A DNA stretch of 64,000 bases from Chloroflexota bacterium. Lineage in GTDB: Bacteria; Chloroflexota; Limnocylindria; Limnocylindrales; CSP1-4. The first letter of the stretch is position 1. Every line of letters begins with the position of its first letter. The DNA lies in the NCBI GenBank assembly GCA_919901745.1, contig CAKKPP010000008.1, positions 27,643 to 91,642 of the forward strand. Reading direction: 5' to 3'. Under the pieces are notes generated by a model. That model made no database searches and was not told where the DNA came from. It saw only the letters and a list, made by a program, of their open reading frames with translations. The translations under genes and the position numbers were made by a program. This document shows positions 24,151 through 46,268 of this stretch, in pieces.

Positions 24151-24159
24151 ACCGGGACG

Positions 24160-24336
24160 TCAGCCGTCGTCGACTGCCTCGGCGGGGATCCAGCGTTCGG
24201 GTTCATCGCGGAAGGTCTCGGCGCAGGCCGATTCGCAGAAGTAGTAGGACCTACCGGCAACCTCGACCACTTCGACGACGGCGGCGGGATCGGTTTCCAT
24301 CCCACAGACGGGATCGATGGCAGTCAACGACGGCAT
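24160..24336 (-). CDS. Small YHS-domain protein
   Basis: MPSLTAIDPVCGMETDPAAVVEVVEVAGRSYYFCESACAETFRDEPERW. Confidence 0.85.
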   Translation of the reverse strand: MPSLTAIDPVCGMETDPAAVVEVVEVAGRSYYFCESACAETFRDEPERWIPAEAVDDG

Positions 24337-24566
24337 TGGTGGACTCCTCGTTCGAGCGGCTTCAACGTCGACCGAGCGTGACCCACGCCCATGAGACGCA
24401 GCTGAGCCGGTGCTGTGCCCGAGATGAATCTGACACTCCGGCCTCGACGGCCGCGCGCTTCTTGACCCGAACTTGATGTCGTCGAACATCACCGCTTGAG
24501 TCCCGCAGCTCATCGTTCGTCGTGTCGGAGCCAAACGGGATCCGACATCACGGAGGCAACGACGAA

Positions 24567-24788
24567 ATGATGACCGGCTTTGAATGGGGGATGGGGCTGG
24601 GCGGCTGGCTCTGGATGATCCTCGGGGTCGTCCTGGTGGTCGCTCTTGTATGGGCTGTCGTGGCGGCGATCCCCCGTCGGGATCGGCCGACGGGCGAAGA
24701 CCCGGCTCAGATCCTCAAGGCCCGCTTCGCGCGGGGCGACATCAGCCAGGAAGAGTACGAGCAGGCACGGCGCCTGCTCGGGATCTAG
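24567..24788 (+). CDS. SHOCT-domain small membrane protein
   Basis: One TM, then DPAQILKARFARGDISQEEYEQARRLLGI. Confidence 0.88.
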   Translation: MMTGFEWGMGLGGWLWMILGVVLVVALVWAVVAAIPRRDRPTGEDPAQILKARFARGDISQEEYEQARRLLGI

Positions 24789-24804
24789 ACGAAGGAGTAG
24801 ATCG

Positions 24805-25089
24805 ATGACAACGAAGCGACAGGGCTTCATCGCAGGCGGCATCCTTGCCGGCGCGCTCCTGTTGGGAACAGCGGGATTGGCAGCGGCTCAGGATCCGACC
24901 AGCTCTCCTGCCCCGAATCCCATGTGGACGGGGCCGGGCTCGGGCATGACGGGCGCCGGCATGAGCGGCCAGATGGGCGCCGGCATGAGCGGCCAGATGC
25001 AGGCACAGCACGACCAGATGGTCGCGAGCGGGGCCTGCGACGATGCCCAGATGGGCGCGATGCACGCCCAGCATCATCCGACCAACTAG
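24805..25089 (+). CDS. Secreted Met/His-rich small protein
   Basis: Signal peptide; GAGMSGQMGAGMSGQMQAQHDQM...MGAMHAQHH. Confidence 0.7.
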   Translation: MTTKRQGFIAGGILAGALLLGTAGLAAAQDPTSSPAPNPMWTGPGSGMTGAGMSGQMGAGMSGQMQAQHDQMVASGACDDAQMGAMHAQHHPTN

Positions 25090-25157
25090 ACACCTCTGAC
25101 GACGAAGCGCCGATCATGTCGGCGCTTCGTTCCGATTTCCGTCCAAGGAGAAGCACC

Positions 25158-25562
25158 ATGGCATCCGGCTACACGTACGCCACAACCGTCGCGGGCTCGA
25201 TCGAAGAGATCCGGGCTCGGGTCGAAGCCGCGCTCAAGGATGAGGGCTTCGGGATCCTCACCGAGATCGACGTGGCAGCAACACTCAAGGCGAAGCTCGG
25301 CCTCGACCGACCGCCGTACCTGATCCTGGGGGCCTGCAATGCGGGGCTCGCCAGCCGCGCCCTGGAGATCGACCCCTCGATCGGGGCGCTCTTGCCCTGT
25401 AACGTCGTCCTCCGCCGATCCGACGATCTGGCGGAGACGATCGTCGAGATCATGGATCCGATCGCGGCCCTGGGAATCGCCGGCGCCGCCGGCGTCGAGC
25501 CGATCGCTGCCGAGGCTGCCGAACGGCTGCGCCGAGTCCTCGATGCACTCGGCGCTGGCTGA
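25158..25562 (+). CDS. DUF302 domain protein
   Basis: VEAALKDEGFGILTEIDVAATLKAKLGLDRPPYLILGACNAGLASRALEIDPSIGALLPCNVVLR. Confidence 0.9.
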   Translation: MASGYTYATTVAGSIEEIRARVEAALKDEGFGILTEIDVAATLKAKLGLDRPPYLILGACNAGLASRALEIDPSIGALLPCNVVLRRSDDLAETIVEIMDPIAALGIAGAAGVEPIAAEAAERLRRVLDALGAG

Positions 25563-25635
25563 TCTCGAATCGCGCGACGGACCCTCAGCCCTCTCTCACT
25601 TCGTTCTCAGCTGGAAACGACAGCGTGACGCATCG

Positions 25636-26103
25636 ATGAATGCACGGAGCGCGCGGGCGGCCCTGGTCGTGCTGATCGGCCTCCTGATCGGCGCGTGCTC
25701 GACATCGGACCTGGCCGAACCCTCGCCATCGATCACCCAGATCCCGAGCCCGCCCGCGGAACGACCGGCCGAGTTGACCCAGACGAGTGACGGGGGCGAG
25801 GTCACGGTCGTGGTGACGTGGGCCGGTCCTGCGGCCGGTCTCGTATTCGATGTCGTGCTCGACACCCATTCGGTCGACCTCGACGCCGTCGATCTCGCCG
25901 ATGCGGTCGTATGGAACGATCGCGGCGAAACCCTGGGCGCGCGGCCGTGGGCCGCTCCGGCCGGCGGGCACCATCGCCAGGGGACCCTGGTGTTCGAGGG
26001 CGACGTGCCCGCGTTCCTTGGCGAGGCGCGATGGGTGGAGCTCCAGATCAAGGGTGTCGGCGACCTCCCCGAGCGAACGCTCCGCTGGGACGTCGATACG
26101 TGA
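25636..26103 (+). CDS. Lipoprotein, unknown function
   Basis: LIGACSTS lipobox; single ORF. Confidence 0.65.
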   Translation: MNARSARAALVVLIGLLIGACSTSDLAEPSPSITQIPSPPAERPAELTQTSDGGEVTVVVTWAGPAAGLVFDVVLDTHSVDLDAVDLADAVVWNDRGETLGARPWAAPAGGHHRQGTLVFEGDVPAFLGEARWVELQIKGVGDLPERTLRWDVDT

Positions 26104-26600
26104 CCGCCGTCGCCGGCTTCCTCCGACCCGGCCTCCCGATCGGCGCTCGGTCGCTCGTCGTGGGGTTCGTCGGGGCAGGCGTCCTGCTGGGGCTCTATCT
26201 CGGGATCATCAGCGTGGCCCAGGGCGTCGAGCACGCCTTCGATCAACTTGCCGGCGACGTAGGGTTCGTTGGCCTCATTGCCGCGGGCTTTGGGACGCAG
26301 GTCGCCATGTTCGCGGAGCTTCGGAGCCTGGGCCGCCGCCACCGTGCGAGTGCCGCGGTCACGGCGGTGGGCACGGGGACGAGTGCGGCCGCGATGCTCG
26401 CCTGTTGCGCGCACCACCTCGTCGAACTGCTGCCGATCATCGGCCTTTCGGCCGGCGCCGTCTTCCTCAACGCATACAGGACACCGCTGTTCATCGTGGG
26501 CATCGGCATGAGCCTCGTCGGCATCATCGTGATCGGCCGACAGCTTCAGCAAGCGCGCCGAGCGTGCGCGGTCGTCGAGGCCGCACATGCTGCCGCGTGA
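26100..26600 (+). CDS. Four-TM membrane protein with CCAHH motif, MerT-like
   Basis: MLACCAHHLVELLPIIGLSAGAVFLNAYRTPLFIVGIGMSLVGI. Confidence 0.6.
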   Translation: MTAVAGFLRPGLPIGARSLVVGFVGAGVLLGLYLGIISVAQGVEHAFDQLAGDVGFVGLIAAGFGTQVAMFAELRSLGRRHRASAAVTAVGTGTSAAAMLACCAHHLVELLPIIGLSAGAVFLNAYRTPLFIVGIGMSLVGIIVIGRQLQQARRACAVVEAAHAAA

Positions 26601-26738
26601 CCCACGCGAACGTCTCGATGGCCTGTGCGACGGCCAGAGGTCCCCCGGTCTTCGGGCCAGTTGGACCTGCCTCCAGCACGCCCGACGCCACAACCTGAAC
26701 CCATCCAGACCACAACGACGCCACAGGAGATCGTCCGC

Positions 26739-27269
26739 ATGCTTCGAATCGCACCCCGCCTGGCCCCGATCCTGGGCCTGCTCTTCCTCGCCGCCTGCTC
26801 GGCCGGCGCCGCGCCGTCCGCCAGTGACCCGGGCCAGCCCTCCCCCACTGACGAGATGCCGATGGCCAGCGACGACCACGCGGCCGGCTTCTCCGGGGGC
26901 GAGCCGGCTGACGCCAGCGCAGCGGATCGCGTGGTCGAGATCCGCATGCTCGATGCTCTTCGGTTCGAGCCCGCGTCGGTCGACGTCAAGGTCGGCGAGA
27001 CCATCACGTTCAGGGTGATCAACGACGGGCAGATCACACACGACTTCACCCTCGGGGACGCCGAGACCCAGGACAAGCACGACGCCGAGATGGCTGCGGG
27101 AATGTCGGGCATGGGCCACGACAAGCCGAACGTCCTGACAGTCGATCCCGGCGCGGAGGGTGAGCTGACCTGGCGCTTCACGGCTCCGGCGACGCTCCTC
27201 TACGGCTGCCACGTACCGGGCCACTACGGCGCCGGCATGGTCGGCACCTTGACCATCGCGGGGTCCTGA
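26739..27269 (+). CDS. Lipoprotein cupredoxin (type-1 Cu ligands present)
   Basis: ITHDFTLGD ... YGCHVPGHYGAGMVG (H, C, H, M). Confidence 0.85.
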   Translation: MLRIAPRLAPILGLLFLAACSAGAAPSASDPGQPSPTDEMPMASDDHAAGFSGGEPADASAADRVVEIRMLDALRFEPASVDVKVGETITFRVINDGQITHDFTLGDAETQDKHDAEMAAGMSGMGHDKPNVLTVDPGAEGELTWRFTAPATLLYGCHVPGHYGAGMVGTLTIAGS

Positions 27270-27941: not shown

Positions 27942-29033
27942 ATGACAGCTGGCGCGAAGGCGATCGAGGGAGGGCGCCGGCACAGGGCGTGGGTGGCGAT
28001 CGATGAACGCCTCGGGCTGAGCGCGCTGGCCTATCCCGTCCCCGTCCACGCCAACGGGATCGGCTACATCCTGGGCGGTATCACCTTCTTCGGGTTCCTC
28101 ATCCTCGTCGTGACAGGAATCTGGCTGGCGCAGTTCTACCATCCGACGCCGACCACGGCGCGCGAGAGCATCGTCTACATCATGAACGTGGCGCCGCTCG
28201 GCGACCTCGTCCGCGGCATCCATTTCTGGGTCGCGAATATCGTCATGGCGACCGTACTCCTGCACATGAGCCGGGTGTTTCTTACCGGCTCATACAAGCG
28301 CCCGCGCGAGGCCAACTGGCTGATCGGCCTTGGGCTCCTTGGCGTCACCCTCGGCTCGATCTTCACCGGCACCGTCCTGAAGTGGGATCAGGAGGGCTTC
28401 GAAGCCCTGGGGCACAATCTCGAGATCGGGGATCTCCTGGGTGTCGTCGGCCTCTGGTTCTCGGAGGACTTCGCCGCAGCCAGCGGGCCGATCATCGGCA
28501 GGCTGGCGAACGCTCACATCTCCATCCTCCCCACGATCGGCACGCTGCTTCTCATCGCCCACTTCCTCCTCGTCAAACGCCACGGGATCTCATCGCTGCC
28601 CGCGCAGTCGGACGCTGCCGCGGAGGGTGGCCCGGTCCCGGCCCGTGGCGGCTCCACGTTCACTGCCCATCTCGTGCGGATGGCGGGGTTCGGGCTACTG
28701 ATGCTGGCGCTCGCGACGGTACTCACCCTGATCTGGCCCGCCGAACTCGGTCCACGGCCGATCCCGGGGGAGGAGATCACGAAGCCGCCCTGGATGTTCC
28801 TGGTGTTCTACCCCCTGGAGGACTGGTTCGGGCTCAGCGCGCTTCTCTGGGCACCGGCGATTCTGTTCGGCGCCCTTGCCCTCGTGCCGTTCGTCGACCG
28901 AACCAAGTACCGCTCGCCGACCCGGCGACGGTTGGTCATCGCGATCGGCGCGATCGTGGCCGTCTTCGCCGTCGCCCTCGTGCTCTATGCGCTCATCACG
29001 GTTCCCCAGGCGCACATCCAGGAGGCGATGTGA
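27942..29033 (+). CDS. Cytochrome b/b6 family protein (N- and C-terminal regions)
   Basis: GILLxx-type core: RGIHFWVANIVMATVLLHMSRVFLTGSYKRPREANWLIGLGLL; KPPWMFLVFYPLED. Confidence 0.88.
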   Translation: MTAGAKAIEGGRRHRAWVAIDERLGLSALAYPVPVHANGIGYILGGITFFGFLILVVTGIWLAQFYHPTPTTARESIVYIMNVAPLGDLVRGIHFWVANIVMATVLLHMSRVFLTGSYKRPREANWLIGLGLLGVTLGSIFTGTVLKWDQEGFEALGHNLEIGDLLGVVGLWFSEDFAAASGPIIGRLANAHISILPTIGTLLLIAHFLLVKRHGISSLPAQSDAAAEGGPVPARGGSTFTAHLVRMAGFGLLMLALATVLTLIWPAELGPRPIPGEEITKPPWMFLVFYPLEDWFGLSALLWAPAILFGALALVPFVDRTKYRSPTRRRLVIAIGAIVAVFAVALVLYALITVPQAHIQEAM

Positions 29034-29239
29034 TGGCCACGGTCCTTCTTCGTCTCATCCTCCTCGCTGTCGGGATGGGCGCCGTCGAGATCGGACTCGG
29101 CAGCGCCCTGGTCGACGGATCACCTGCCGGCTGGGCGCTCGTGCTCATCGTCGGCCTTCCGATGATCGTCGCCGGCTCGGCCGGCTTCATGGTCTCGCTG
29201 CTGGGCGGGGCGACGCGGAAAGGTTCCACCGATGCGTAG
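29033..29239 (+). CDS. Small membrane protein
   Basis: Overlaps upstream stop (TGATG); two TM segments. Confidence 0.55.
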   Translation: MATVLLRLILLAVGMGAVEIGLGSALVDGSPAGWALVLIVGLPMIVAGSAGFMVSLLGGATRKGSTDA

Positions 29240-29849
29240 GGCTCTATCGTTCGCGGTCGTTCTCGGACTCACCCTCTCGTTCGGTGGCGCCGTCACGATG
29301 CTGGCCCACGAGGGCGACGGGGATGCGAAGATCGAGATCGAGCCTTCGACGGTCTCGGCCGGCGAATCGGTGATCGTTGTCGGAAGCGGGCTGGAACCCG
29401 ACAGCGACCGCGTCCTTCTGCTCGCTGGGGAAAGCCTCATCGTGCAGTTCGGCACCGTGAAGACGAACGCTGACGGACGGTTCCAGCGGGAGCTGACCAT
29501 CCCGGGCCACATGCCGGCCGGCACGTACGAGCTCCAGGCGATCGGCGACGAGACGCTCACCGTAGCACTCGGCATCCTGGCGGCCGAGGCGGCGACCTCA
29601 CCGGCCCCGGCCGCATCCCCGGCGGTGGGTGCGACCGACGCGCCTGGCGCCACCGCCGCCCCCGGTGGGATCGTCGGTCCGGGTGCCACCGCCGCCCCGG
29701 TCGATCCGACGAAGTCCATCGTGCCCCGTGAGCGAACGCCGCTCGACCTCGCGCTGATCGTGGGTTTCATGGCGCTGGCCGCGACCGTTGGCGGACTCCT
29801 CGCCTGGCGGGCCGAGCACTTCCGAGGCGTGGCCGAAGCCGAGTCGTGA
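29232..29849 (+). CDS. Secreted, membrane-anchored Pro/Ala-linker protein
   Basis: Signal peptide, Ig-like segment VSAGESVIVVGSGLEP, C-terminal TM. Confidence 0.6.
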   Translation: MRRALSFAVVLGLTLSFGGAVTMLAHEGDGDAKIEIEPSTVSAGESVIVVGSGLEPDSDRVLLLAGESLIVQFGTVKTNADGRFQRELTIPGHMPAGTYELQAIGDETLTVALGILAAEAATSPAPAASPAVGATDAPGATAAPGGIVGPGATAAPVDPTKSIVPRERTPLDLALIVGFMALAATVGGLLAWRAEHFRGVAEAES

Positions 29850-31118: not shown

Positions 31119-31197
31119 GGGTCGCCCACCTTTCCTTCGCAGATCCGCACGCCCGCGCGCGGCCGGGTCGGCTCGGCGACGCACGTGGTCGCTTATC

Positions 31198-31215
31198 TAC
31201 TACATGGCCATAGTA
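31198..31215. promoter_or_regulatory. Near-palindrome TACTACATGGCCATAGTA between divergent genes; BlaI/CopY-like half-site
   Basis: TACTACA half-site plus offset TAGTA; located between 29871(-) and 31332(+). Confidence 0.3.
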
Positions 31216-31331
31216 CACACCTCCGGGTCATCCCTGGGAGAGACCGTTCTAAGCGCAGGCTCAGGCGCGCCTCACGCCTGGCTCAGCGAAATCGCCCAGT
31301 CTGGCATCAAGTAGCGCTGGAGGACCTCGCA

Positions 31332-31721
31332 ATGAAGCTCCTCTCCGCACTGATGGCCGTGGGGATCGTGGCGATCGTCGTCGTGGCCCTCGGAGTCGCC
31401 GCCCGGAAATCCGAGGGCGACCAGACCCCGCGTTCGGCGGAGATCGTCATGGAAGAGTCGCGCTTTTCACCGAATCAGTTCAACGCGAAGGTCGGCGTGC
31501 CGATCATCGTGAGAATCACGAACCGGGGCAGCGAGCGCCACGACCTCCTGTTCCCGTCGCTGCACATGCCCGGCCTGCAGGGTGTCGAGGCGATCCTCGA
31601 TCCGGGAGAGTCGCGGACGGTCACGCTCCGGTTCGAGGAGGCCGGCACCCACACGTTCATCTGCAGCATCCCGGGTCATGCCGCTGCCGGCATGACTGGT
31701 GCGGTCTTCGTCCGGCCATGA
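31332..31721 (+). CDS. Membrane-anchored cupredoxin (type-1 Cu ligands)
   Basis: SERHDLLFPSLH ... FICSIPGHAAAGMTG. Confidence 0.85.
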   Translation: MKLLSALMAVGIVAIVVVALGVAARKSEGDQTPRSAEIVMEESRFSPNQFNAKVGVPIIVRITNRGSERHDLLFPSLHMPGLQGVEAILDPGESRTVTLRFEEAGTHTFICSIPGHAAAGMTGAVFVRP

Positions 31722-32077
31722 GCCCGACGGTTGTCGCGGACGATCGGGCCCGGGCCGTGCGTCACGCTCAGCGTGCGAGCGGACAGGTCGGGGCCCTCGC
31801 CGGGATGGTCGCCGCCGGCGATCCGTTCCCTGCGATCGCCCAGCAGATCCAGGCGGCCAGGGGCTCGCTCGAATCGCTGCTCGTCCGCCTGGTCGAACTC
31901 GAGTTGGACGGATGCCTCCCGACGCGAGAGGTGCGAGAAGAGGTCGACGGCCTGCTCCGCACAGCGTTCGGACACACACCCGCCCGCCGCTCGCCATCCC
32001 GCCCCGCGGCGATCCGATCCCAAGGCAGCCTTGCTGCGTCAAGGCAGGCTCGATCTCATGAGGAAGGGACAGACTGA
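31718..32077 (+). CDS. CsoR/RcnR-family regulator, divergent metal site
   Basis: HAQRASGQVGALAGMVAAGDPFPAIAQQIQAARGSLESLLVRLVELELDGCL. Confidence 0.75.
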   Translation: MSPTVVADDRARAVRHAQRASGQVGALAGMVAAGDPFPAIAQQIQAARGSLESLLVRLVELELDGCLPTREVREEVDGLLRTAFGHTPARRSPSRPAAIRSQGSLAASRQARSHEEGTD

Positions 32078-32586
32078 TGACACGCCGATCCCATGCCGGC
32101 TCCGATGGACGGCCGCTACCGACTCGCCAGGGGCCTGCCTCGCTCGGCACTGATCGCGATCGCGCGGTCCCAGGGCCTCGGCCTGTCCGGATCGCGGTCT
32201 TCGCGCTCATCGCGCTCCTCGTGACGGGTGCTGCCGCCGGCCTCGTGATGAGCCGCCTCCAGGGTGCCGGGGGGGCCGACGTGACGGCGATCCAGGTGCA
32301 CGCCAGCATGGGTGGCTTCGATCCGCCGGCCCTGACCGTCAAGGCCGGCGAGACCATCCGCGTCGAGTTCTCGAGCATGGACACCCCGTTCCACAGCGAC
32401 GGCGGCGGCTGGCACCAGTTCGCGATCGATGCGCTGGGCATCGACTGGAATGTCGGGCCGCAGAGCAGCGAGGTCTTCGAGATGACGGCACCCGACGTCG
32501 CTGGGTCCTACACCTTCTATTGCGATGTCTGCTGCGGTGGCAAGGAGAACCCGTCGATGCAGGGCACGCTCACCGTGACCGCGTGA
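32077..32586 (+). CDS. Membrane-anchored cupredoxin with CuA-like CxxCC motif
   Basis: FDPPALTVKAGETIRVEFSSMDTPFHSDGGGWHQFAID...YTFYCDVCCGGKENPSMQGTLTV. Confidence 0.8.
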   Translation: MTRRSHAGSDGRPLPTRQGPASLGTDRDRAVPGPRPVRIAVFALIALLVTGAAAGLVMSRLQGAGGADVTAIQVHASMGGFDPPALTVKAGETIRVEFSSMDTPFHSDGGGWHQFAIDALGIDWNVGPQSSEVFEMTAPDVAGSYTFYCDVCCGGKENPSMQGTLTVTA

Positions 32587-33446
32587 TGCGGGGGCCGATG
32601 GCCGCGTCCATGACCCGGCCGCGGCTCCTGTTCGTGGTCGTCGGGTCGGTGATCGCCGCCTCGGCCGCGGCGATGCTCGCGTTCGCGCCTCGTGCCGACG
32701 AGCACCAGGCGCTCGCCGACCTGAGTCTTCCGGTGATCCTCACGGCCGGCTTCCTCGACGGGTTCAATCCGTGTGCCTTCGGGGTGCTCATCCTGTTCGC
32801 GACGTTCGCGCTCGGGCTCGCGGCGCGCCAGTCCCTGGGGTCGGCCGGACCGGGCGGGACGCCCGACGTGGGCGGGGCAAGCCGGACCGTCCTGGGCCTC
32901 GGCGCCTTCTTCGTGCTCGGCGTCCTCGTCACCTACTTCATGCTCGGGCTCGGTCTCCTCACGGCGCTCGCCTCGCTCACCGACTTCGGTGGCAATCACC
33001 TGCCGAGTCGGGTCGCCGCCCTGATCGCGATCGGGCTCGGGCTGTGGATGGTCCGCGACGTCCTCCTGCCGGACGCACGCTGGAAGCTCGAGGCACCGCA
33101 CTCCCTCCACGGCCGGATGCGCGACTGGGCTCGGTCGAGCTCGCCCGTCGCACTCTTCGGGGGCGGCGTCCTCATCGGGCTGTGCACGGTGCCGTGCAGC
33201 GGGGCCGTCTACCTCGGCGTCGTCGCGCTGCTCGGCGCCAGCGGCACGGTCGGGGCCGGGCTCGGTGGGCTCGCCCTCTACAACCTGGCGTACATCACCC
33301 CGGTCGTCGGCCTGCTCATCCTCGCCAGCCGGCCCGGCCTCATCCGGGTGGTCAATCGCTGGCACCTCGAGCATGCCACGGGCACGAGGGCCGTCCTTGC
33401 GATCGTCGTCCTGGCCCTCGGCTTTGCGATCCTGCTGACCGTGTAG
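32586..33446 (+). CDS. CcdA/DsbD-type cytochrome c biogenesis transmembrane protein
   Basis: FLDGFNPCAFGVLILF; GLCTVPCSGAVYLGVVALL. Confidence 0.88.
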   Translation: MRGPMAASMTRPRLLFVVVGSVIAASAAAMLAFAPRADEHQALADLSLPVILTAGFLDGFNPCAFGVLILFATFALGLAARQSLGSAGPGGTPDVGGASRTVLGLGAFFVLGVLVTYFMLGLGLLTALASLTDFGGNHLPSRVAALIAIGLGLWMVRDVLLPDARWKLEAPHSLHGRMRDWARSSSPVALFGGGVLIGLCTVPCSGAVYLGVVALLGASGTVGAGLGGLALYNLAYITPVVGLLILASRPGLIRVVNRWHLEHATGTRAVLAIVVLALGFAILLTV

Positions 33447-33478
33447 CCCGGCCCGCTCGGCGACCCAGGCGCCTGAGT

Positions 33479-33529
33479 GCCCCACGCGGTGTGATGCCCC
33501 ACGCGCCGTGATGCCCCACGCGCCGTTAT
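33479..33529. repeat. Three tandem 17-bp repeats (gccccacgcgccgtgat consensus)
   Basis: gccccacgcggtgtgat / gccccacgcgccgtgat / gccccacgcgccgttat. Confidence 0.9.
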
Positions 33530-33999
33530 TACCCGGGGTCATCAAATTCGGGCTGAGCGAGCGTGACACTCCACCCGGAACGTCGGAATCGGTGACCCGT
33601 CACGCCTGCGGACGCCAGATCTCATTACCGAGCGGAATATCGGACGGGAGGACGGGCGGACACGGATCCCGGCCTCGCGACGATCCGACCGGCCGCGATG
33701 GCCGCCCGGATCAGCCACGAGCGTCTCCGTCGGGTCCAAGGCTCCCACGCGGCTCGAGGCTATCAGGCGGCGATCTGCCAGAGCATGTCGGCGCAGGCGC
33801 CGCGTCAGGCATCCCGGCGTCGGGCTCGCGACAAAGGCCACTCGTGCGAGCCCACGGCGCGCCGGGTGAACGGATCGCGTCCGGCACCGTCACCGGCCGG
33901 AATGCATCGGGCGCGATGACAGGGCGTACGACCACGGTTCTCACCCCAGCGTCAGGTCCGCCTCATCCCGGCTTCAGGTCGGTGGACTCAACTTGGGCG

Positions 34000-34191
34000 A
34001 TGCCGGACCTGCTGTTGATCCTGCTCCTGGTGGCCGCGATCCTCCTGGTCGCCGACATGCTGCTTGCGGGCGGGGCGATGACGATGACAGGGATGTCGGC
34101 GATGGCCGGCGCGTTCGCCCATCCGCTCACCGCCGGGGCGGCGGTCGCGTTGATCATCGCCCTCGTGCTGGTCCTCGGCGGTCAGACCTGA
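34000..34191 (+). CDS. Small two-TM membrane protein
   Basis: MPDLLLILLLVAAILLVADMLLAGGAMTMTGMSAMAGAFAHPLTAGAAVALIIALVLVLGGQT. Confidence 0.55.
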   Translation: MPDLLLILLLVAAILLVADMLLAGGAMTMTGMSAMAGAFAHPLTAGAAVALIIALVLVLGGQT

Positions 34192-34193
34192 CG

Positions 34194-34721
34194 ATGCTCG
34201 AGCAGCCCGTTCACGCCCGCATTGATCCCGACGGCCGCCAGGTGATCGACATCGTCATCGATGGTGGCTACCACCCGGGCGCGATCGTCGCTCGGGCTGG
34301 GCTGTCCCTCCGCCTCGTCTTCACCCGCGACGACGACGACGACTGCTCCGAACGGGTCGTGTTCTCCGACCCGCGGCTCGACCGCCGCATCGCGCCGACC
34401 GGCCGGACATCCATCGATCTCCCCGCGCGGCCGCCCGGAGAGGTTCGGTTCACCTGCGGCATGGGCCGCTACCGCGGCCGCATCGAGCTCGTCGACGAGG
34501 GGACACGGTCACGAGCCACTCGGCTTCGCGATCGCCTGGGCCGCCTCGCGACACCGCTGGGGACCGCGCTCCTCCTGTGGATCAGTACGCTGCCCCTGGT
34601 CGTCCTGGTCGGTCTCATCGCCTCCGACGTGACCATCACGATCGTGGCCGCAGTGTCCGTGCTGGTCGCGTGGGTGGCCGGCTGCCTGTGTGCCGTCGGA
34701 CGCTCGGCCGGGCCGACGTAG
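34194..34721 (+). CDS. Cupredoxin_1-like domain + C-terminal TMs
   Basis: GGYHPGAIVARAGLSLRLVFTRDDDDDCSERVVF...VRFTCGMGRYRGRIEL. Confidence 0.75.
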   Translation: MLEQPVHARIDPDGRQVIDIVIDGGYHPGAIVARAGLSLRLVFTRDDDDDCSERVVFSDPRLDRRIAPTGRTSIDLPARPPGEVRFTCGMGRYRGRIELVDEGTRSRATRLRDRLGRLATPLGTALLLWISTLPLVVLVGLIASDVTITIVAAVSVLVAWVAGCLCAVGRSAGPT

Positions 34722-34735
34722 CCGGGGACGCGCAC

Positions 34736-35551
34736 GTGCCGTTCGTCATCGACATCGACCCCGTCGCCTTCAGCGTCCTCGGGATTCCGGTGCGCTGGTA
34801 CGGGCTGATCCTCGTCGGCGCCGCCGCCCTCGCGATCTGGCTGGCGCAGCGCGAGGGACGACGCCGCGGCATCGAACCGCCGATCATCTCGGACGCGGTC
34901 GTCTGGGTGGGAGCCGCCGCGCTCGTCGGCGGGCGCCTGCTCTACGTCGTCCAGAACGAGCTCGGCAGCGTGGGCCAGCATCCGTTCCACATCCTGATGA
35001 TCTGGATGGGTGGCCTCTCGTTCTATGGCGGGCTGGTCGGCGCCCTCCTGGCCCTGGCGGTCTTCGCACGCCGCCGTGGACTCCCGCTCCTTGCCGTGTT
35101 CGACGTGGCGGCACCCGCCGCCGCGATCGGTCAGGCGATCGGACACATCGGCTGCCTCATCGGTGGGGACTCGTATGGCAACCCGACCGACGTGCCCTGG
35201 GCCGTCGTCTATCGGAACCCCGGTGCGATGGCACCGCAGGGGATCCCGCTCCACCCGACGCAGGCGTATGAGGCGATCCTCCTCGGGATCCTGTTCGTCG
35301 CACTGTGGGTCGGCCGGGAGCGCCTCGGGCGGCTCGGCAAGGGCGCCGTCGCCGGCACCTACCTCCTGGGTCTGTCCGCGATCCGGTTCGGGCTCTTCCT
35401 CCTCCGGGATGAACCGGCCGTGCTGTTCGGCTTGAAGACCGCGCAGTTGATCGGGCTTGGGATCGCGGCCCTGGCCATCGTCATTCTCGTTGCCGGGCGC
35501 CAGGCGCGCCGCTCCTTCGCCACACCCAAGCTGGAGGCCACCGGACCATGA
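34736..35551 (+). CDS. Atypical prolipoprotein diacylglyceryl transferase-like protein
   Basis: VRWYGLILVGAA..., GQAIGHIGCLIGGDSYGNPTDVPWAVVY, HPTQAYEA. Confidence 0.85.
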   Translation: MPFVIDIDPVAFSVLGIPVRWYGLILVGAAALAIWLAQREGRRRGIEPPIISDAVVWVGAAALVGGRLLYVVQNELGSVGQHPFHILMIWMGGLSFYGGLVGALLALAVFARRRGLPLLAVFDVAAPAAAIGQAIGHIGCLIGGDSYGNPTDVPWAVVYRNPGAMAPQGIPLHPTQAYEAILLGILFVALWVGRERLGRLGKGAVAGTYLLGLSAIRFGLFLLRDEPAVLFGLKTAQLIGLGIAALAIVILVAGRQARRSFATPKLEATGP

Positions 35552-35982
35552 CGACTCACGACCACCATCGTACGGCCGACATCGGCCCCGACCGCGGACC
35601 TTCCACGGCCCCGGCGTCCGCTCGACGACCGCGATGGCTCCTCCCGGCCCTGCTCGTCGCGATCACCGCCATGGCGCTCGTCGCTGCCGGAATCGTGCCC
35701 CTTTCCAGCGCCCTCTACGCCGGCCTCTTCGGGGGCATGCTCCTCATGCACGCGGGCGGGCACGGCGGGCACGGCGCGCACGGCGGGCACGGCGGGCACG
35801 GCGGGCACGGCGCGGCCGATGCCCCGTCCCCCCCGCCGGCGCGAGATCTCAGCCTCGCCTCACCTGGCTCTCAGACCGCTCGATCACGCTCCAACCGTGG
35901 GCTCGATGAGGGAGCTCCAACCGACGAACACGGAGTCGAGCGAACCGACCATGACAACGAGGGTATCCATGGGTGCCACTGA
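35548..35982 (+). CDS. Gly/His-rich membrane-anchored metal-binding protein
   Basis: MTTHDHH...[25 protein letters not shown]...[19 protein letters not shown]. Confidence 0.7.
35752..35815 (+). repeat. 9-bp tandem repeat (ggcgggcac) encoding (GGH)n
   Basis: gcgggcgggcacggcgggcacggcgcgcacggcgggcacggcgggcacggcgggcac. Confidence 0.9.
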
Positions 35983-38080
35983 CTTCGCGGGAGCGCCGCC
36001 ACGTGGTGCGACGGGATCCTCGTCCCCCGCGACCCTTGCCCAACCGACGAACTCGGCGGCGACCGATCGCCAGGCCGAGTACCGCTCGCTCATGCGCAAG
36101 TGGTGGTTCGGGGCGGCGGTGGGCGCACCGACGATGGTCCTGTCCTACCCGTGGCTGATCCCCGGGCTGCGCGACGTGTTTCCGCGCGGCAGCGAGCAGC
36201 TGTGGTGGCTGTGGGTCGCGATGGGCATCGCATCGCTGGCCGTGATCGCCTATTCGGGCAACCAGTTCTTCACGGGGGCCTGGGAGGCGCTCCGGCACCG
36301 CTCGGCGAACATGCACACGCTCATCGCGATCGGGACCGGCACGGCCTGGGTCTACTCGACCGTCGCCCTCCTCGTTCCGCAGCTCTTCCCGTCGGCCGAG
36401 ATGGCCGACGTGTACTACGACGTCACGGTGGTCGTGACCGCCCTCGTCGTCCTGGGCATGGCGATGGAGGTCAAGGCTCGGGGCCGGACATCCGAGGCGA
36501 TCGAGAAGCTCATTGGGCTTCAGCCCAGGACCGCCCGCGTCGTTCGCGACGGAGCGGAAACCGAGATTCCCATCGAGGGGGTGGTGGTCGGCGACATCGT
36601 CGTCGTGCGGCCCGGTGCGAAGATCCCGGTCGACGGCATGGTGGTCCTGGGTGCCTCGGCCGTCGACGAATCGATGATCACCGGCGAGTCGATGCCGGTC
36701 GCGAAGGGTCCCGACGACGAGGTCATCGGAGCGACAATGAACACGACCGGAAGTCTCCGCTTCCGGGCAACGAAGGTCGGCGCCGACACCGCCCTGGCGA
36801 CGATCGTCCGGATGGTCGGCGACGCCCAGGCGTCCCGGGTGCCGATCCAGCGGATCGTCGACGTGGTGTCCAGCTACTTCACGCCGGCCGTCGTCATCCT
36901 CTCGATCCTGGGCTTCGTCATCTGGTATGACGTCGGCCCGGCACCCGCCTTCACCTACGCGACGATCGTCGCGGTGACCACGCTGATCATCGCCTGCCCG
37001 TGCGCGCTCGGGATGGCGACACCGATGTCGCTCACGACCGGCGTCGGCCTCGCGGCCGGCCACGGCATCCTCATCCGCTCCGGCGACGCCCTCCAGGCGG
37101 CCAAGAAGATTGACACGGTCGTCCTCGACAAGACGGGCACGATCACGGTCGGAAAGCCCGCCGTCACCGACGTCGTTGCGGCCGACGGGTTCGAGGTCGA
37201 CGCGATCCTGGCCCTTGCGGCGGCGGCCGAGCGCGACTCGGAGCATCCGCTTGCCGCCGCGATCGTCGACGGGGCCGCCGAGCGCGGACTCAGCCCACCC
37301 GAAGCATCCCGGTTCGAGGCCGTCCCGGGCCATGGCATCCGAGCGTGGCTCGGCGAGCGAAGGGTCCTCGTCGGCAAGCGCGCCTTCCTCGAGGCGGGCG
37401 GCGTCAAGGCCGCTGTCCTTGAGGCCGAGGCCGCGCGCCTGGCCGACGAGGGCAAGACCCCGGTCTACGTCGCCCTCGACGACCGGGTCGCCGGTCTCGT
37501 GGCGATCGCGGATCCGGTCAAGGACGACTCGGCGGCAGCGATCGCGGCACTGCGCAGGCTCGGCCTGCAGGTCGTCATGATCACCGGCGACAACCGCCGA
37601 ACCGCCGATGCGATCGCCCGCCGGGTCGGGGTGGATCGCGTGCTGGCCGAGGTCCTGCCGCAGGACAAGGCCCACGAGGTTCGCACGCTCCAGCTCGAAG
37701 GCCGAACCGTGGCCATGGTCGGCGACGGCATCAACGACGCGCCCGCCCTTGCCCAGGCCGACGTGGGCTTCGCGATCGGAACCGGAACGGACGTCGCGAT
37801 CGAGGCCTCGGACGTGACGCTGATCTCGGGAAGCCTGCGTGGGGTCGTCTCGGCGATCGCGATCAGCCGGGCGACGATGCGCAACGTCCACGAGAACCTG
37901 TTCGGCGCGTTCGTCTACAACGGCCTCGGGCTGCCGGTGGCGCTCGGCGTCCTGTATCCCTTCGTCGGCCTGTTGCTCAGTCCGATCCTGGCCGCGCTGG
38001 CGATGTCGTTCAGCTCGGTCACCGTCATCAGCAATGCCAACCGCCTCAAGCGGTTCCGGCTCAAGGAGGTGGCCTCGTGA
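35951..38080 (+). CDS. copB: P1B-type copper-translocating ATPase (no N-terminal HMA domain)
   Basis: [27 protein letters not shown]-binding [16 protein letters not shown]; starts within the upstream ORF. Confidence 0.88.
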
Positions 38081-38460
38081 CTCCCGATCAGATCCTCGTC
38101 ACGGTGGGCGGCCTCGCGGCCGCCGCCGGCGTCGCCTGGTTCTTCTGGTTCAAGCGGAGTCCCGGCGTCCGCGCGTCCACGGTCTCCGACGGCTACCAGG
38201 AGGTGATGATCCTGGTCAAGGGCGGCTACACGCCGGACACCATCCGGGTTGCCGCCGGGCGCCCGGTCCGTCTCCTGTTCCGGCGCGAGGAGACGGCGGC
38301 CTGCTCGGAGCAGGTCGTCCTGCCCGATTTCGGCAAGTCCGCGCCGTTACCGACCGGAACCGTCGTTCCGATCGAGTTCATGCCCGGGGAGCCCGGTGAG
38401 CACGAGTTCACGTGCCAGATGGGGATGCTCCGCGGACGGATCCTGGTGGAGGCTGTGTGA
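38077..38460 (+). CDS. Membrane-anchored Cupredoxin_1-like protein
   Basis: [40 protein letters not shown]...[17 protein letters not shown]. Confidence 0.85.
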
Positions 38461-38717
38461 TGACGTTCGTGAATGATCTTGTCGTCCTCGATCCCCGCGC
38501 TGGCGGAGCGGCGAGTTGCATCGTGTGCGGCAACGACATCGCCCCCGGCGAGGGCGTCACGGCCCGCTACGAGGACCGCACCCTGCGGTTCAAGTGCCCG
38601 GGCTGCCTGGCCCGCTTCGAGGCGGACCCCGAGCGGTTCCTCACGGGCGCCGAGGCCGGATGCTGCGGGAACGGGCACGACCATTCGCCGGACAGCGAGT
38701 GGGCCTGCGACCGGTGA
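38460..38717 (+). CDS. TRASH/YHS-like Cys-rich protein
   Basis: ASCIVCGNDIAPGEGVTARYEDRTLRFKCPGCLARFEADPERFLTGAEAGCCGNGHDH. Confidence 0.75.
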   Translation: MTFVNDLVVLDPRAGGAASCIVCGNDIAPGEGVTARYEDRTLRFKCPGCLARFEADPERFLTGAEAGCCGNGHDHSPDSEWACDR

Positions 38718-43166: not shown

Positions 43167-43190
43167 ATACTTGAGGCATGGCTCAAGTAT
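43167..43190. promoter_or_regulatory. Candidate ArsR/SmtB operator ATACTTGAG-gcatgg-CTCAAGTAT overlapping the arsR start codon
   Basis: Perfect 9-bp inverted repeat; start ATG at 43178-43180 lies in its spacer; GATACT -10 at 43166-43171. Confidence 0.75.
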
Positions 43191-43567
43191 TCGCCTCGGC
43201 CATCGATGTCGACCGGTGTGAGACCGAATGCCTCCATCCCGAGGCGGTCCGTCCCCTACTCGAAAGGTCGCTGGGGGTCGACGGTGCCGCGTCCGTCGGT
43301 TCGCTGTTCGCGACCCTCGCCGATCCGTCGCGCGCGAGGATCCTGCACCTGCTCGCGATCAGCGAGCGCGAATTGTGCGTTTGCGACATCGCCCTCGTGC
43401 TCGGCATGAGCGTCTCCGCCCTCTCGCACCAGCTCCGCCATCTCCGTGAGCGCGGGGCGGTGAGCCGGCGCAAGGCCGGCCGGATCGCGTACTACCGGCT
43501 CATCGACGACCACGTGCGCCGGCTCGTGCTCGACGCGGTGGCCCATGTCGCGGAGGGTCTGGCCTGA
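43178..43567 (+). CDS. ArsR/SmtB/CadC-family metal sensor
   Basis: CETEC N-term, ELCVCD (alpha3), DDHVRRLVLDAVAHVAE (alpha5). Confidence 0.9.
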   Translation: MAQVFASAIDVDRCETECLHPEAVRPLLERSLGVDGAASVGSLFATLADPSRARILHLLAISERELCVCDIALVLGMSVSALSHQLRHLRERGAVSRRKAGRIAYYRLIDDHVRRLVLDAVAHVAEGLA

Positions 43568-44475
43568 TGCCGCACGCCCACGGGGGCGCGGCCGGCGGAA
43601 GCGCCGCTGCCGCCAGTCGCGGCCGACTCGTGACCGTCTTCGTCGTCACGCTGGGCGTGTTCGTCGTCGAACTCGTCGGCGGCATCGCCTCGAACAGCCT
43701 GGCGCTGATCGCCGACGCCGGGCACATGCTCACCGACGTCGCGGGGATCGGCCTTGCGCTCCTCGCGATCTGGTTCGGATCGCGACCGGCGAACGACGGT
43801 CGGACCTTCGGGTTTCTCCGGCTCGAGATCCTGGCCGCGGTCGTCAACGCGGTGCTGCTGTTCGGAGTCGCGGCGTTCGTGTTGATCGAGGCCTGGCGGC
43901 GGCTGTCCGCACCACCCGAGATCGCGTCGGGGCTGATGCTGGCGGTGGCCCTCCTGGGCCTGGCCGCGAACGGCGTCTCGCTCTATCTCCTGCGTGACGC
44001 CCAACGGCACAGTCTGAACATGCGCGGCGCGTATCTCGAGGTGCTGGGCGACTTCGCCGGGTCGGTTGCGGTGATTGTCGCCGCGATTGTCATCGGTGCG
44101 ACCGGCTGGACGGCGGCCGATGCGATCGCGTCGGCGCTGATCGGCCTGCTCATCATCCCGCGGACGTGGGGGCTTCTGCGCGAAGCAGTCGACGTTCTCC
44201 TCGAGGCCACCCCGAGGGGGATCGACCTCGACGACGTGCGCTCGCACATCCTCGGCGCGCCGGGGGTCGCGGACGTCCACGACCTGCACGCCTGGACGAT
44301 CACGTCCGGGATGAACGTCGTGTCGGCGCACGTGGTGCTCGCCGAGGGTGCAGAACCGCCGGCTGTGCTGGATGAGCTGTGCCGCTGCCTGACGGGTGAC
44401 TTCGACATCGAGCACTCGACGTTCCAGCTGGAGGCCCCCGACCGCCGCCGGCTCGAGCAGGCCCCGCATCCATGA
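43567..44475 (+). CDS. Cation diffusion facilitator (CzcD-like)
   Basis: ALIADAGHMLTDVAGIGLALLA; LNMRGAYLEVLGDFAGS. Confidence 0.9.
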   Translation: MPHAHGGAAGGSAAAASRGRLVTVFVVTLGVFVVELVGGIASNSLALIADAGHMLTDVAGIGLALLAIWFGSRPANDGRTFGFLRLEILAAVVNAVLLFGVAAFVLIEAWRRLSAPPEIASGLMLAVALLGLAANGVSLYLLRDAQRHSLNMRGAYLEVLGDFAGSVAVIVAAIVIGATGWTAADAIASALIGLLIIPRTWGLLREAVDVLLEATPRGIDLDDVRSHILGAPGVADVHDLHAWTITSGMNVVSAHVVLAEGAEPPAVLDELCRCLTGDFDIEHSTFQLEAPDRRRLEQAPHP

Positions 44476-45107
44476 GCACCACCGTGGTCCCAACCCTCGA
44501 TCGCGGGCGTCTGCTTCGCCGCGGCCTCCGCCTCGAGTATTTCACCGTCGGTTGGAATGTCGTCGAGGGGCTCGTCGCCGTCGCCGCCGCGCTCGCCGCG
44601 GGCTCGGTCGCGCTGCTCGGCTTCGGAATCGATTCGTTTGTAGAGTCCGCCTCGGGCCTGATCATCATCTGGCGCCTCCAGGCCGAGCACCGCGCGGTCG
44701 ACCACGAGCGGATCGAGGCCGTCGAGCGGCGAGCACAGCGCTTCGTGGCGGCCTCGCTCGTCGCAGTCGCCGCGTACATCGCGTTCGACGCGGTCACCAC
44801 GCTCCTCGCGGGGGATCGACCCGAAGCGAGCCCGGTCGGGGTCGGATTAGCCTCCCTCTCGCTCGGGGTCATGTGGTGGCTGGCCCGGGCCAAGCGGCGA
44901 ACGGCAATTGCCCTTGGCTCCCGGGCGATGCGAGCCGACGCGTTCCAGACGACGGCCTGCTGGTGGCTGTCGCTCGCGGTTCTGGTCGGGGTTGGCCTGA
45001 ACATGCTGTTTGGCCTGTGGTGGGCGGATCCGCTCGCGGCCCTCGTGATCCCGATCTTCCTCCTCCGCGAGGCCCGCGAGGCCTGGGCGGGGGAGGACTG
45101 CGACTGA
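44472..45107 (+). CDS. CDF-superfamily cation transporter, divergent
   Basis: SVALLGFGIDSFVESASGLIIIWRL; MRADAFQTTACWWLSLAVL. Confidence 0.8.
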   Translation: MSTTVVPTLDRGRLLRRGLRLEYFTVGWNVVEGLVAVAAALAAGSVALLGFGIDSFVESASGLIIIWRLQAEHRAVDHERIEAVERRAQRFVAASLVAVAAYIAFDAVTTLLAGDRPEASPVGVGLASLSLGVMWWLARAKRRTAIALGSRAMRADAFQTTACWWLSLAVLVGVGLNMLFGLWWADPLAALVIPIFLLREAREAWAGEDCD

Positions 45108-45122
45108 CGGCGAAGGATAGCG

Positions 45123-46268
45123 ATGCCCGGACGACGACGCCAACGCCAGAAAGGTCAGCCAGAGGGCGCGGGCGGGCATGAGCACAAGGGCCACGACCAC
45201 GGGGCCCACGAGGCCCGCCTCGTCGACGACGGCCACGACGACTACGACCACCGGCGCAGCCTGCTCGGGATGATCCGGTCGATCGTCGGGCCGCACAGCC
45301 ATGACCCGGGGGATTCGGTCGACAGCGCCCTCGAGGCGAGCGCCAGGGGCGTTCGCGCGGTCAAGCTCTCGCTCGTCGCCCTCCTGGCCACGAGCGCCTT
45401 CCAGGTCGCGATCGTGGTCGTCACGGGCTCGGTCGCCCTGCTGGCCGACACGGTCCACAACTTCTCCGATGCCCTGACGGCGGTGCCGCTGTGGATCGCC
45501 TTCGTAGTCGGTCGACGGGTGGCCACGAGGCGCTACACCTACGGCTACCGGCGAGCCGAGGACCTCGCGGGCATCTTCATCGTGGCGATGATCCTGTTCT
45601 CGGCCGGACTGGCCGCCTGGGAGTCGATCAATCGATTGATCCATCCGCAGCCGCTCTCCAACCTGGGTCTGCTGGCGATCGCCGGATTCATTGGGTTCCT
45701 CGGCAACGAGCTCGTCGCGCTGTACCGGATCCGGATTGGAACGGAGATCGGTTCTGCCGCGCTGGTCGCCGACGGCCACCACGCGCGCACCGACGGGCTC
45801 ACGTCACTCGCCGTGGTAGCGGGCGCGGCCGGCGTCTGGTTGGGATTCCCGCTCGCCGACCCGCTCATCGGCCTGCTCATCACGGTGGTCATCCTGTGGG
45901 TCCTGAAGGGCGCTGCGAGCCAGGTCTTCGCCCGGCTCATGGATGCGGTGGATCCGGCCGTCACCGACGCCGTCGAGCTGGCCGCGGCTCAACCCGGCGT
46001 CGAGGACGTTGCGAGCGTCCGCATCCGCTGGCTCGGCCATCAGCTGGAGGCTGAGGCGCACATCGTCGTCGATAGCGACCTGTCAACGGCGCGCAGCCAC
46101 GCGATCGCCGAGGGCGTGCGCCACGCGATCTTCCATGCGGTGCCGCGGATCTCCGACGTGACGGTTCACGTCGATCCGTGTACGCACTCGCTCGCCGATC
46201 CGCACGAGACCACGGCCGACCACCTGCCGCAGACGCCGCGACGGGATCGAGCGACGCCGGCGAGTTGA
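45123..46268 (+). CDS. Cation diffusion facilitator with His-rich N-terminus
   Basis: GGHEHKGHDHGAHEA; LLADTVHNFSDALTAVPLWIA; ALVADGHHARTDGLTSL. Confidence 0.9.
   Translation: MPGRRRQRQKGQPEGAGGHEHKGHDHGAHEARLVDDGHDDYDHRRSLLGMIRSIVGPHSHDPGDSVDSALEASARGVRAVKLSLVALLATSAFQVAIVVVTGSVALLADTVHNFSDALTAVPLWIAFVVGRRVATRRYTYGYRRAEDLAGIFIVAMILFSAGLAAWESINRLIHPQPLSNLGLLAIAGFIGFLGNELVALYRIRIGTEIGSAALVADGHHARTDGLTSLAVVAGAAGVWLGFPLADPLIGLLITVVILWVLKGAASQVFARLMDAVDPAVTDAVELAAAQPGVEDVASVRIRWLGHQLEAEAHIVVDSDLSTARSHAIAEGVRHAIFHAVPRISDVTVHVDPCTHSLADPHETTADHLPQTPRRDRATPAS

Follow-up and report, generated by a model that had tools for sequence, protein, structure and literature searches.

An Lgt-family protein with a remodelled catalytic signature is a conserved part of a copper module in one Chloroflexota family

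A gene for a membrane protein of the Lgt family, here called Lgt*, is a conserved part of a copper module in one family of uncultured Chloroflexota. Judged from its sequence, a routine lipoprotein-making enzyme appears to have been recruited for dealing with copper, since the catalytic arginine that is otherwise invariant among Lgts is now a histidine and the gene always sits in a copper cluster. The explanation that we favour, and to which we give about even chances, is a chromosomal module for Cu(I) detoxification and homeostasis in which a neofunctionalised Lgt* acts at the periplasmic face, where copper leaves. Copper loci with an additional Lgt gene are already known, and what is new here is a copper-locus Lgt with a remodelled catalytic signature. 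Such additional Lgt genes recur in the copper islands of unrelated bacteria, and the Lgt* clade offers a sharp handle on why, as it shares the genomic association but has its catalytic Arg replaced and a new set of residues fixed. If copper tolerance required Lgt* even though it lacked normal Lgt activity, what these Lgts do for copper would be separable from lipoprotein maturation. The annotation 'lgt' can be a poor marker of lipoprotein biogenesis, which is an antibiotic target.

The copper module and its proteins

The window, meaning the whole 64,000-nucleotide stretch of DNA that was analysed, was examined through its open reading frames and profile searches, and all the genes listed in the original prediction were present on a single strand in the layout described there, including the overlaps and a gap of about 550 bp (Table 1). 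Run 1 (31332-33446) consists of a cupredoxin, a CsoR-family gene, the cupredoxin cupB and a CcdA-like gene, with an overlap of 4 bases between the first two and of 1 base between the CsoR-family gene and cupB. After a gap of 553 bases, run 2 (34000-38717) comprises smTM, cupC, Lgt*, GH, the Cu-ATPase, cupD and the gene of the TRASH protein, and here both the Lgt* and GH genes and the ATPase and cupD genes share 4 bases. A scan of 31180-34200 for promoters and terminators found none. The identification as a copper-handling module was upheld by the CupA-like cupC and cupD and by the TIGR01511 ATPase, which, as predicted, lacks an HMA domain (its translation contains ACPCALG, and Pfam detected only E1-E2 and HAD domains); the proposed TRASH-like protein matched PF24273.

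Table 1. Features of the copper module and its upstream neighbours, in window coordinates
Feature	Coordinates	Strand	Evidence
Cytochrome b-like protein and two small partners	27942..29849	+	PF13631 98 bits
LgtB, second Lgt-family protein	29871..about 31184	-	PF01790 63 bits
cupA-type cupredoxin, N-terminal anchor	31332..31721	+	PF13473 49.7 bits, PF00127 30.3 bits; homologue alignment
CsoR/RcnR-family protein	31718..32077	+	PF02583 36.8 bits; 16 homologues aligned
cupB, membrane-anchored cupredoxin	32077..32586	+	PF13473 44 bits; 21 homologues
CcdA/DsbD-TM-like multi-spanning membrane protein	32598..33446	+	NPCA and CTVPC motifs; alignment with homologue L047:11175-12047
smTM, 63-aa Met-rich membrane peptide (AMTMTGMSAM)	34000..34191	+	10 homologues directly before cupC
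cupC, CupA-like Cu(I) cupredoxin	34194..34721	+	profile vs CupA 2mry/4f2e E=4.7e-16; alignment
Lgt*, Lgt-family membrane protein	34736..35551	+	PF01790 192 bits; 5azb phmmer 4.7e-25
GH, His/Gly-rich membrane protein, C-terminal HGCH	35548..35982	+	20 homologues
Cu(I) P1B-1 ATPase, CPC motif, without N-terminal HMA	about 35951..38080	+	TIGR01511 576.5 bits vs 397
cupD, membrane-anchored CupA homologue	38077..38460	+	profile vs CupA 2mry/4f2e E=6e-22
TRASH/YHS-type metal-binding protein	38460..38717	+	PF24273 TRASH_HVO_1752_C 38.4 bits vs cut-off 27

Nearly all the proteins around Lgt* are rich in copper ligands. The cupA-type cupredoxin carries the blue-copper ligands H...C..H..M in the homologue alignment, and a lipobox is found in 2 of its 14 homologues and is absent from the window copy. 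The protein encoded by cupB had been described as CuA-like, which was not confirmed: its 21 homologues conserve CxxCCGG[KR]xxPxM and lack the His of the CuA motif CxxxCxxxHxxM. For the presumed CsoR-like regulator, family membership stood (PF02583) but the copper site did not, as the 16 aligned homologues lack equivalents of C36 and H61 and vary at the third Cys. These are positions that we take to form the Cys-His-Cys copper triad of CsoR, whose first Cys and His are therefore missing, and copper regulation by this protein is accordingly only putative. The window copy of the CcdA-like protein had no match to Pfam DsbD_TM, even at E<=10 in a genome search, and its homologue at L047:11175-12047 scored 27.0 bits against a cut-off of 27.1; the structural model, built on four sequences only, had a pLDDT of 44.

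In cupC, the cupredoxin is followed by two helices predicted by eye to lie in the membrane, giving a C-terminal anchor; C51, C88 and M90 are present, the site-1 cysteines are invariant, and the second site-2 Met (M115 position) is Arg. The cupD product has an N-terminal hydrophobic stretch, and all four of its Cu(I) ligands are invariant (C76, C113, M115, M117). Streptococcus pneumoniae CupA, whose role and Cu(I) ligands (C74, C111, M113, M115) have been described, belongs to a family that delivers Cu(I) to the ATPase from the cell interior (PMC5646241). In its CupA-CopA export system, as with cupD here, an anchored cupredoxin and a CopA-type ATPase are neighbours and the Cu(I) ligands correspond, but the module differs in that no N-terminal metal-binding domain was detected in its ATPase and in having two CupA-like proteins, one of which (cupC) is without a site-2 Met. 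The periplasmic copper relay that had been proposed for the locus thus applies only to part of it, because CupC and CupD, the cupredoxins adjacent to Lgt* and the ATPase, are of this CupA-like kind, a family acting from inside. The GH protein resembles DUF2933 proteins in anatomy only (hhalign probability 58% over 16 His-rich columns), and its assignment to DUF2933 was rejected in the absence of a PF11666 match above the cut-off.

Distribution and ancestry of Lgt*

Of the 107 genomes examined from the window's own family, 25 carry Lgt*, with thirty copies among them and 11 genera represented. An Lgt with GHxGC occurred in none of 367 genomes from other Chloroflexota. A contig scan with two peptide patterns gave identities of at least 54% only in Chloroflexi MAGs among the matches listed, and a plasmid tblastn search with Lgt* gave one distant match. 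The original prediction depended on co-occurrence of the Lgt-like gene with copper genes in other genomes, and all 30 copies indeed have module genes within 10 kb. Directly upstream of Lgt* lies cupC in 24/30, and directly downstream lies GH in 18/30; in a divergent subgroup cupB-ccdA takes the place of cupC, and both the gene order and the surrounding genes vary among loci. An arrangement seen again at 30 Lgt copies from 25 genomes is not a product of chance.

These data bear on the idea that the Lgt gene is a mere bystander, brought near copper genes by chance or shared mobility and functionally unlinked to them. The patchy, island-like presence in the family (25/107 genomes) would fit such an origin, but module genes accompany every one of the 30 copies, across 11 genera and despite varying surroundings and order, and the gene overlaps GH in the window. 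Furthermore, dN/dS values of 0.17-0.25 indicate that Lgt* is not decaying but under purifying selection, and we regard the bystander explanation as very improbable.

In phylogenetic trees, Lgt* formed a single clade apart from the family's housekeeping Lgt, with a support of 99 and, in a second tree, of 100/100. The separation in both trees led us to reject a recent duplication of the housekeeping gene as the origin of Lgt*, and descent from Bacillota lgt2 was unsupported, as Lgt* did not group with the Bacillota Lgt2 proteins. The general lipoprotein-maturation Lgt of the genome is encoded elsewhere (C31), and a normal LspA is also present (C16).

A remodelled active site

Lgt* has the fold of its family, with an AF2 model of pLDDT 95 that matched 5azb in Foldseek (TM 0.76, E 8.7e-15) and a PF01790 score of 192 bits versus 24.9. 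Its active site carries R143->H, N146->C, E151->D, Y235->L and E243->F, together with private K234 and D225. At the R143 position the alignment showed H137 in 29/29 Lgt* sequences versus R in 75/75 other Lgts, and at the E243 position F221 in 29/29 versus E in 73/75; the Tyr at 235 (213) is lost and replaced by L, V or N, and K234, S146, Q73, D225 and Y159 are fixed in Lgt* and rare or absent in other Lgts. The N146 position is C140 in all 29 sequences, which alone is unremarkable because Cys is also found there in 41 of the 75 other Lgts, lspA-linked ones included. Asn146->Cys was accordingly rejected as a mark of lost function, some of these other Lgts lying beside ileS/lspA-like genes (L056-L058). 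A core of Y26, G104, D129, G154, R239 and R246 is invariant in 29/29.

E. coli Lgt loses its function with any of the changes R143A/E/K, Y235L and E243A/Q/R (PMC4728403). PMC13251419 likewise describes R143 and N146 as essential, and reports E243A as tolerated in another E. coli test. A His in place of Arg143 could partly substitute, as the Arg143 mutants tested were A, E and K only. The fixed substitutions support, at the level of sequence, the altered function that had been suggested for the Lgt homologue.

It is possible, although we doubt it, that Lgt* is no longer an enzyme and that His143 and Cys146 (HxxC, TM4) form a putative membrane Cu(I) site in the former catalytic cavity. An equally tentative extension has Lgt* taking copper from the ATPase and handing it to periplasmic cupredoxins, with the CcdA-like protein keeping the thiol reduced. 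H137 and C140 are both invariant, are typical Cu(I) ligands and lie three residues, or roughly one turn, apart on one helix (118-143 in the AF2 model); the wealth of copper ligands in the neighbouring proteins, and the position of cupB-ccdA immediately before Lgt* in the divergent subgroup, are also consistent with such a site. However, the invariant core residues would be needless for a pure metal site, the Cys is common in ordinary Lgts, and beyond H137/C140 the 29 aligned sequences contain no fully invariant Met, His or Cys (M165 26/29, H173 21/29, H85 27/29). If Lgt* were a Cu(I)-binding component, this would to our knowledge be the first non-transferase role known for the Lgt fold.

Extra Lgt genes in metal loci and the proposed role of Lgt*

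The original prediction held that Lgt normally stays outside metal operons, which was contradicted both by the literature and by plasmids. In Listeria and Enterococcus, copper-resistance genes and the copper-induced lit2 share a transcript with a second lgt (Armbruster et al. 2019, as relayed in PMC8275575 and PMC8689077), and a second lgt has been noted in copper loci of Enterococcus (PMC4511184) and Pseudarthrobacter (PMC6256500). Most of the plasmids that we sampled, from several phyla, have an Lgt gene in or near metal-related genes. Like our module, the lgt2/lit2 element and the lgt-DUF2933 plasmids of Lactococcus and Enterococcus (L199, L200) have an extra Lgt in a copper locus, the plasmids also have a small His-rich membrane protein after lgt, and L199 has CupA-like cupredoxins and a Cu-ATPase nearby. 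In contrast to Lgt*, which has GHIGC and Phe at 243, the Bacillota copper-locus Lgts keep GRxGN and Glu243 and fall in a different clade (100/100), and the DUF2933 of the Lactococcus and Enterococcus plasmids is a true family match, whereas GH shares only the position and the His-rich anatomy.

These precedents raise the alternative that Lgt* is a functional second Lgt, copper-tolerant and made when copper disturbs lipobox thiols, as in the Bacillota islands. Its TIGR00544 score of 136.5, above the cut-off of 118.9, would fit, as do the co-transcribed lgt2 and the spread of Lgt genes in plasmid metal loci. We nevertheless consider this alternative unlikely: R143 and N146 are retained by every plasmid Lgt that we inspected, as is an acidic residue at 243 wherever that region was read, whereas Lgt* is fixed for H at 143 and F at 243; Lgt* lies outside the Bacillota Lgt2 group; and homologue alignments revealed no conserved lipobox protein among the module genes, for which reason a lipoprotein substrate inside the module was also rejected.

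Two further comparisons place Lgt* among known systems. Clusters of merR-copA-cupredoxin-DUF2933-isoprenylcysteine methyltransferase in Alteromonas and other marine gammaproteobacteria (PMC8478169) likewise combine an ATPase, a cupredoxin, a small membrane protein and a membrane enzyme of a cysteine-acting family, but that enzyme is an isoprenylcysteine methyltransferase and not an Lgt, and homology is not claimed. Non-canonical Lgt homologues with altered signature motifs, as in Lgt*, are described in the accessible part of PMC13251419 (N146C forms, MSMEG_5408 and a subgroup lacking R143 and R239), which mentions no copper link for them; unlike that subgroup, Lgt* has lost R143 but kept R239 and has a fixed set of His, Phe and Lys.

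Under the neofunctionalisation that we favour, copper would flow from the cytoplasm outward. The anchored CupC and CupD would collect Cu(I) inside the cell, possibly assisted by the His-rich GH and Met-rich smTM membrane proteins, and load the export ATPase, which appears to have no metal-binding domain of its own. Outside, the anchored cupredoxins cupA and cupB would receive the copper, and the CcdA-like protein may provide reducing power. Lgt* would share the membrane with these proteins, its cavity presumably facing the periplasm. We infer that it descended from a lipoprotein diacylglyceryl transferase whose donor-lipid and catalytic pocket was rebuilt (Arg143->His, Glu243->Phe, loss of Tyr235, gain of a Lys and an Asp), and that, where copper leaves, it may still act on a membrane lipid and/or a thiol, using a changed donor or acceptor. 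General lipoprotein maturation would then be left to the C31 Lgt.

The genome carries five Lgt-family genes in total, a count that, like the second of them (LgtB), had been missed in the original prediction. LgtB lies just upstream of the module in divergent orientation, forms its own clade (support 100) and is more divergent than Lgt*, with an unknown N-terminal domain and the motif GR[VIL]GCF.TGCC; its start is uncertain, and a later one near 30962 is possible. It was found within 10 kb of 11 of the 30 Lgt* copies, and the three-gene cytochrome b-like unit within 10 kb of 10 of the 30.

Organisation of the copper module

The original prediction described two same-strand gene runs and a Cu-type ATPase lacking an HMA domain; both runs are present exactly as described, separated by a gap of 553 bases, and profile searches found no HMA domain in the ATPase. 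Gene junctions are tight, with overlaps of 4 bases at 31718, 35548, and 38077 and of 1 base at 32077 and 38460. A scan of 31180-34200, which spans the gap, found no sigma-70-type promoter or terminator patterns, a result that is weakly informative at 70% GC.

Features of the copper module and its surroundings in the window
Feature	Position	Strand	Assignment
RR/HK pairs, SHOCT, DUF302, and plastocyanin-family proteins	20257-27269	+	
Cytochrome b-like gene and two partners	27942-29849	+	
LgtB (second, divergent Lgt)	29871 to about 31184	-	Lgt family
Four cupredoxins (cupA-cupD)	within 31332-38717		Cupredoxin_1 family, profile search
PF02583 protein	within 31332-38717		profile search
Lgt* (Lgt of the module)	34736-35551, within 31332-38717	+	PF01790, 192 bits
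GH (Gly/His-rich membrane protein)	35548-35982	+	
Copper P-type ATPase	within 31332-38717		TIGR01511, 576 bits
TRASH-type protein	within 31332-38717		profile search
ArsR-family regulator and following proteins	43178-46268	+	

The cytochrome b-like gene accompanies the module in 10/30 loci, together with conserved genes for two small partners of 68 and 205 aa. Further upstream, the response-regulator/histidine-kinase pairs, SHOCT protein, DUF302 protein, and lipobox-bearing plastocyanin-family protein probably belong to a more extensive metal island, and downstream the ArsR-family regulator is followed by proteins resembling cation-diffusion facilitators.

The profiles of cupD and cupC, the cupredoxins of the second run, matched the pneumococcal copper chaperone CupA (6e-22 and 4.7e-16, respectively) and also, at about 3e-9, the pneumococcal ATPase in its N-terminal domain. 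In CupA, Cu(I) is held by C74/C111 and by C74/M113/M115 before being handed to CopA (PMC5646241). All four ligands are retained in cupD, and both cysteines and one methionine in cupC; such CupA-like proteins explain how the ATPase can receive copper despite having no HMA domain. Provided that they act as CupA does, cupC and cupD would lie on the cytoplasmic side; cupA and cupB, from the first run, are of a different type, probably extracytoplasmic. GH ends in a C-terminal Cys-His in 19/20 homologues, mostly as HGCH.

Distribution and active site of Lgt*

By protein search, the Lgts of 60 relatives fell into two classes, at 55-71% versus about 27-42% identity, and we defined Lgt* as the close class; each of the seven genomes with an intact Lgt* in this search carried at least one additional, more distant Lgt. 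A profile search of the 107 genomes of the family recovered 30 copies in 25 genomes and 11/27 genera. As a DNA pattern, the motif GHxGCLxxGD matched 11 of 400 Chloroflexota genomes, every one in the family (11/33 sampled), and none of the 367 outside it. The predicted co-occurrence was borne out, with module genes within 10 kb of all 30 copies: cupC was immediately 5' in 24, GH immediately 3' in 18, and a Cu-ATPase within 10 kb in 19, with contig ends interrupting several loci. The association of Lgt* with the copper module is real and old.

In a divergent subgroup (loci L046, L047, L185, L189, and L190), the cupB-ccdA pair, ccdA being the CcdA-like gene, lies immediately 5' of Lgt*, and in L047 the ATPase after Lgt* carries a GMTCASC metal-binding motif. 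At L048:1364-1732 (genome G032), a truncated Lgt* of 122 aa adjoins an intact ATPase and cupD; thus Lgt* can disappear while the ATPase-cupD pair stays. Downstream of Lgt* at L053:6362-8305 is a predicted protein of 647 residues, in which a CupA-like cupredoxin domain is apparently fused to a larger part.

Alignment to E. coli Lgt (5AZB, whose chain numbering is that of E. coli plus 1) placed H137 and C140 of Lgt*, counted from the start at 34736, opposite Arg143 and Asn146. Comparison of 29 Lgt* with 75 other Lgts revealed His at position 143 in 29/29 versus Arg in 75/75, Phe (F221) at position 243 in 29/29 versus Glu in 73/75, and L, V, or N at position 235, which is mostly Y in the others. 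K234, S146, Q73, and D225 were invariant in Lgt* and rare or absent in the other 75, and Y26, G104, D129, G142, G145, G154, E202, R239, and R246 were retained. In E. coli, the mutants R143A/E/K, Y235L, and E243A/Q/R are inactive (PMC4728403). A later study (PMC13251419) gives Y26, H103, R143, N146, G154, and R239 as absolutely required, E243A as tolerated in one background, and Tyr at 103 as normal in Firmicutes Lgt. Cys at 146 was rejected as a mark of lost function because it is common to many other Lgts.

Since dN/dS between Lgt* pairs was 0.17-0.25 and the predicted structure was a confident Lgt fold (pLDDT 95; sole significant PDB match 5azb), Lgt* is a maintained protein rather than a decaying one. 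It formed a single clade in two trees (support 99; 100/100), apart from the housekeeping Lgt of the family.

The reading we favour is that Lgt* would be a neofunctionalised Lgt at the periplasmic face, acting on a lipid or a thiol with a changed donor or acceptor. The grounds are that Lgt* keeps the core of the lipid pocket but has a rewritten catalytic arginine network, and that homologue alignments of the module proteins revealed no conserved lipobox protein. The main novel alternative is that H137 and C140 form a putative membrane Cu(I) site, for which the C-terminal Cys-His of GH is an attractive candidate partner, though that tail may be cytoplasmic.

Lgt genes in other copper loci and elsewhere in the genome

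The premise that Lgt normally lies outside metal operons is contradicted by published copper loci and by plasmid neighbourhoods. According to two reports, lgt2 shares a transcript with lit2 and copper-resistance genes (PMC8275575; PMC8689077), and lgt is listed in copper loci of Enterococcus (PMC4511184) and Pseudarthrobacter (PMC6256500). PLSDB holds Lgt on 408 plasmids. Among the 11 neighbourhoods read, copper- or other metal-related genes lay within about 5-6 kb in Lactococcus, E. faecium, Indioceanicola, Salipiger, Sphingomonas, Arthrobacter, Streptomyces, and Iamia; a cytochrome b gene was nearby in Rhodococcus, and those of Cytobacillus and Latilactobacillus had apparently no relation to metal. 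All 11 plasmid Lgts retained Arg143 and Asn146. The Lactococcus plasmid has nearly the parts list of the Lgt* module, since it combines lgt paired with DUF2933, a Cu-ATPase, and two cupredoxins of the CupA-like kind. In marine gammaproteobacteria, the gene after ATPase-cupredoxin-DUF2933 encodes an isoprenylcysteine methyltransferase (PMC8478169). Based on these lgt copper loci, the Lactococcus plasmid, and the methyltransferase clusters, we concluded that the Lgt* module is a variant of a recurrent arrangement in which Cu export is accompanied by a membrane enzyme of a cysteine-modifying family. The rebuilt active site of its Lgt is what sets this variant apart.

The window's genome encodes five Lgt-family genes. 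One on contig C31, with the canonical motif GRLGNFFNQELYG and cysK/metB-like neighbours, is likely the housekeeping Lgt; C16 carries a normal LspA. LgtB adjoins the module on its upstream side in divergent orientation, branches as a separate clade, and lies within 10 kb of 11/30 Lgt* copies; it has an N-terminal domain of about 190 residues without assignment and conserved GCFxTGCC and SSDRRxGARR motifs. Two more non-canonical genes (C24:19752-20471 and C31:16616-17365; motifs GRVGCFLSELPLG and GGRVAQVLSGDGQG) had no copper genes obviously nearby in the stretches read. In another family of the same class, an Lgt paralogue of 42% identity (L192:8950-10000, minus strand) retains Arg143 (GRFACLFTGDAVG) and lies near a homologue of cytochrome b and a protein resembling multicopper oxidases. 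In two further genomes of that class, divergent Lgt genes occur in tandem pairs immediately 3' of a secA-like gene (L194:8843-10443 and L195:8283-9919).
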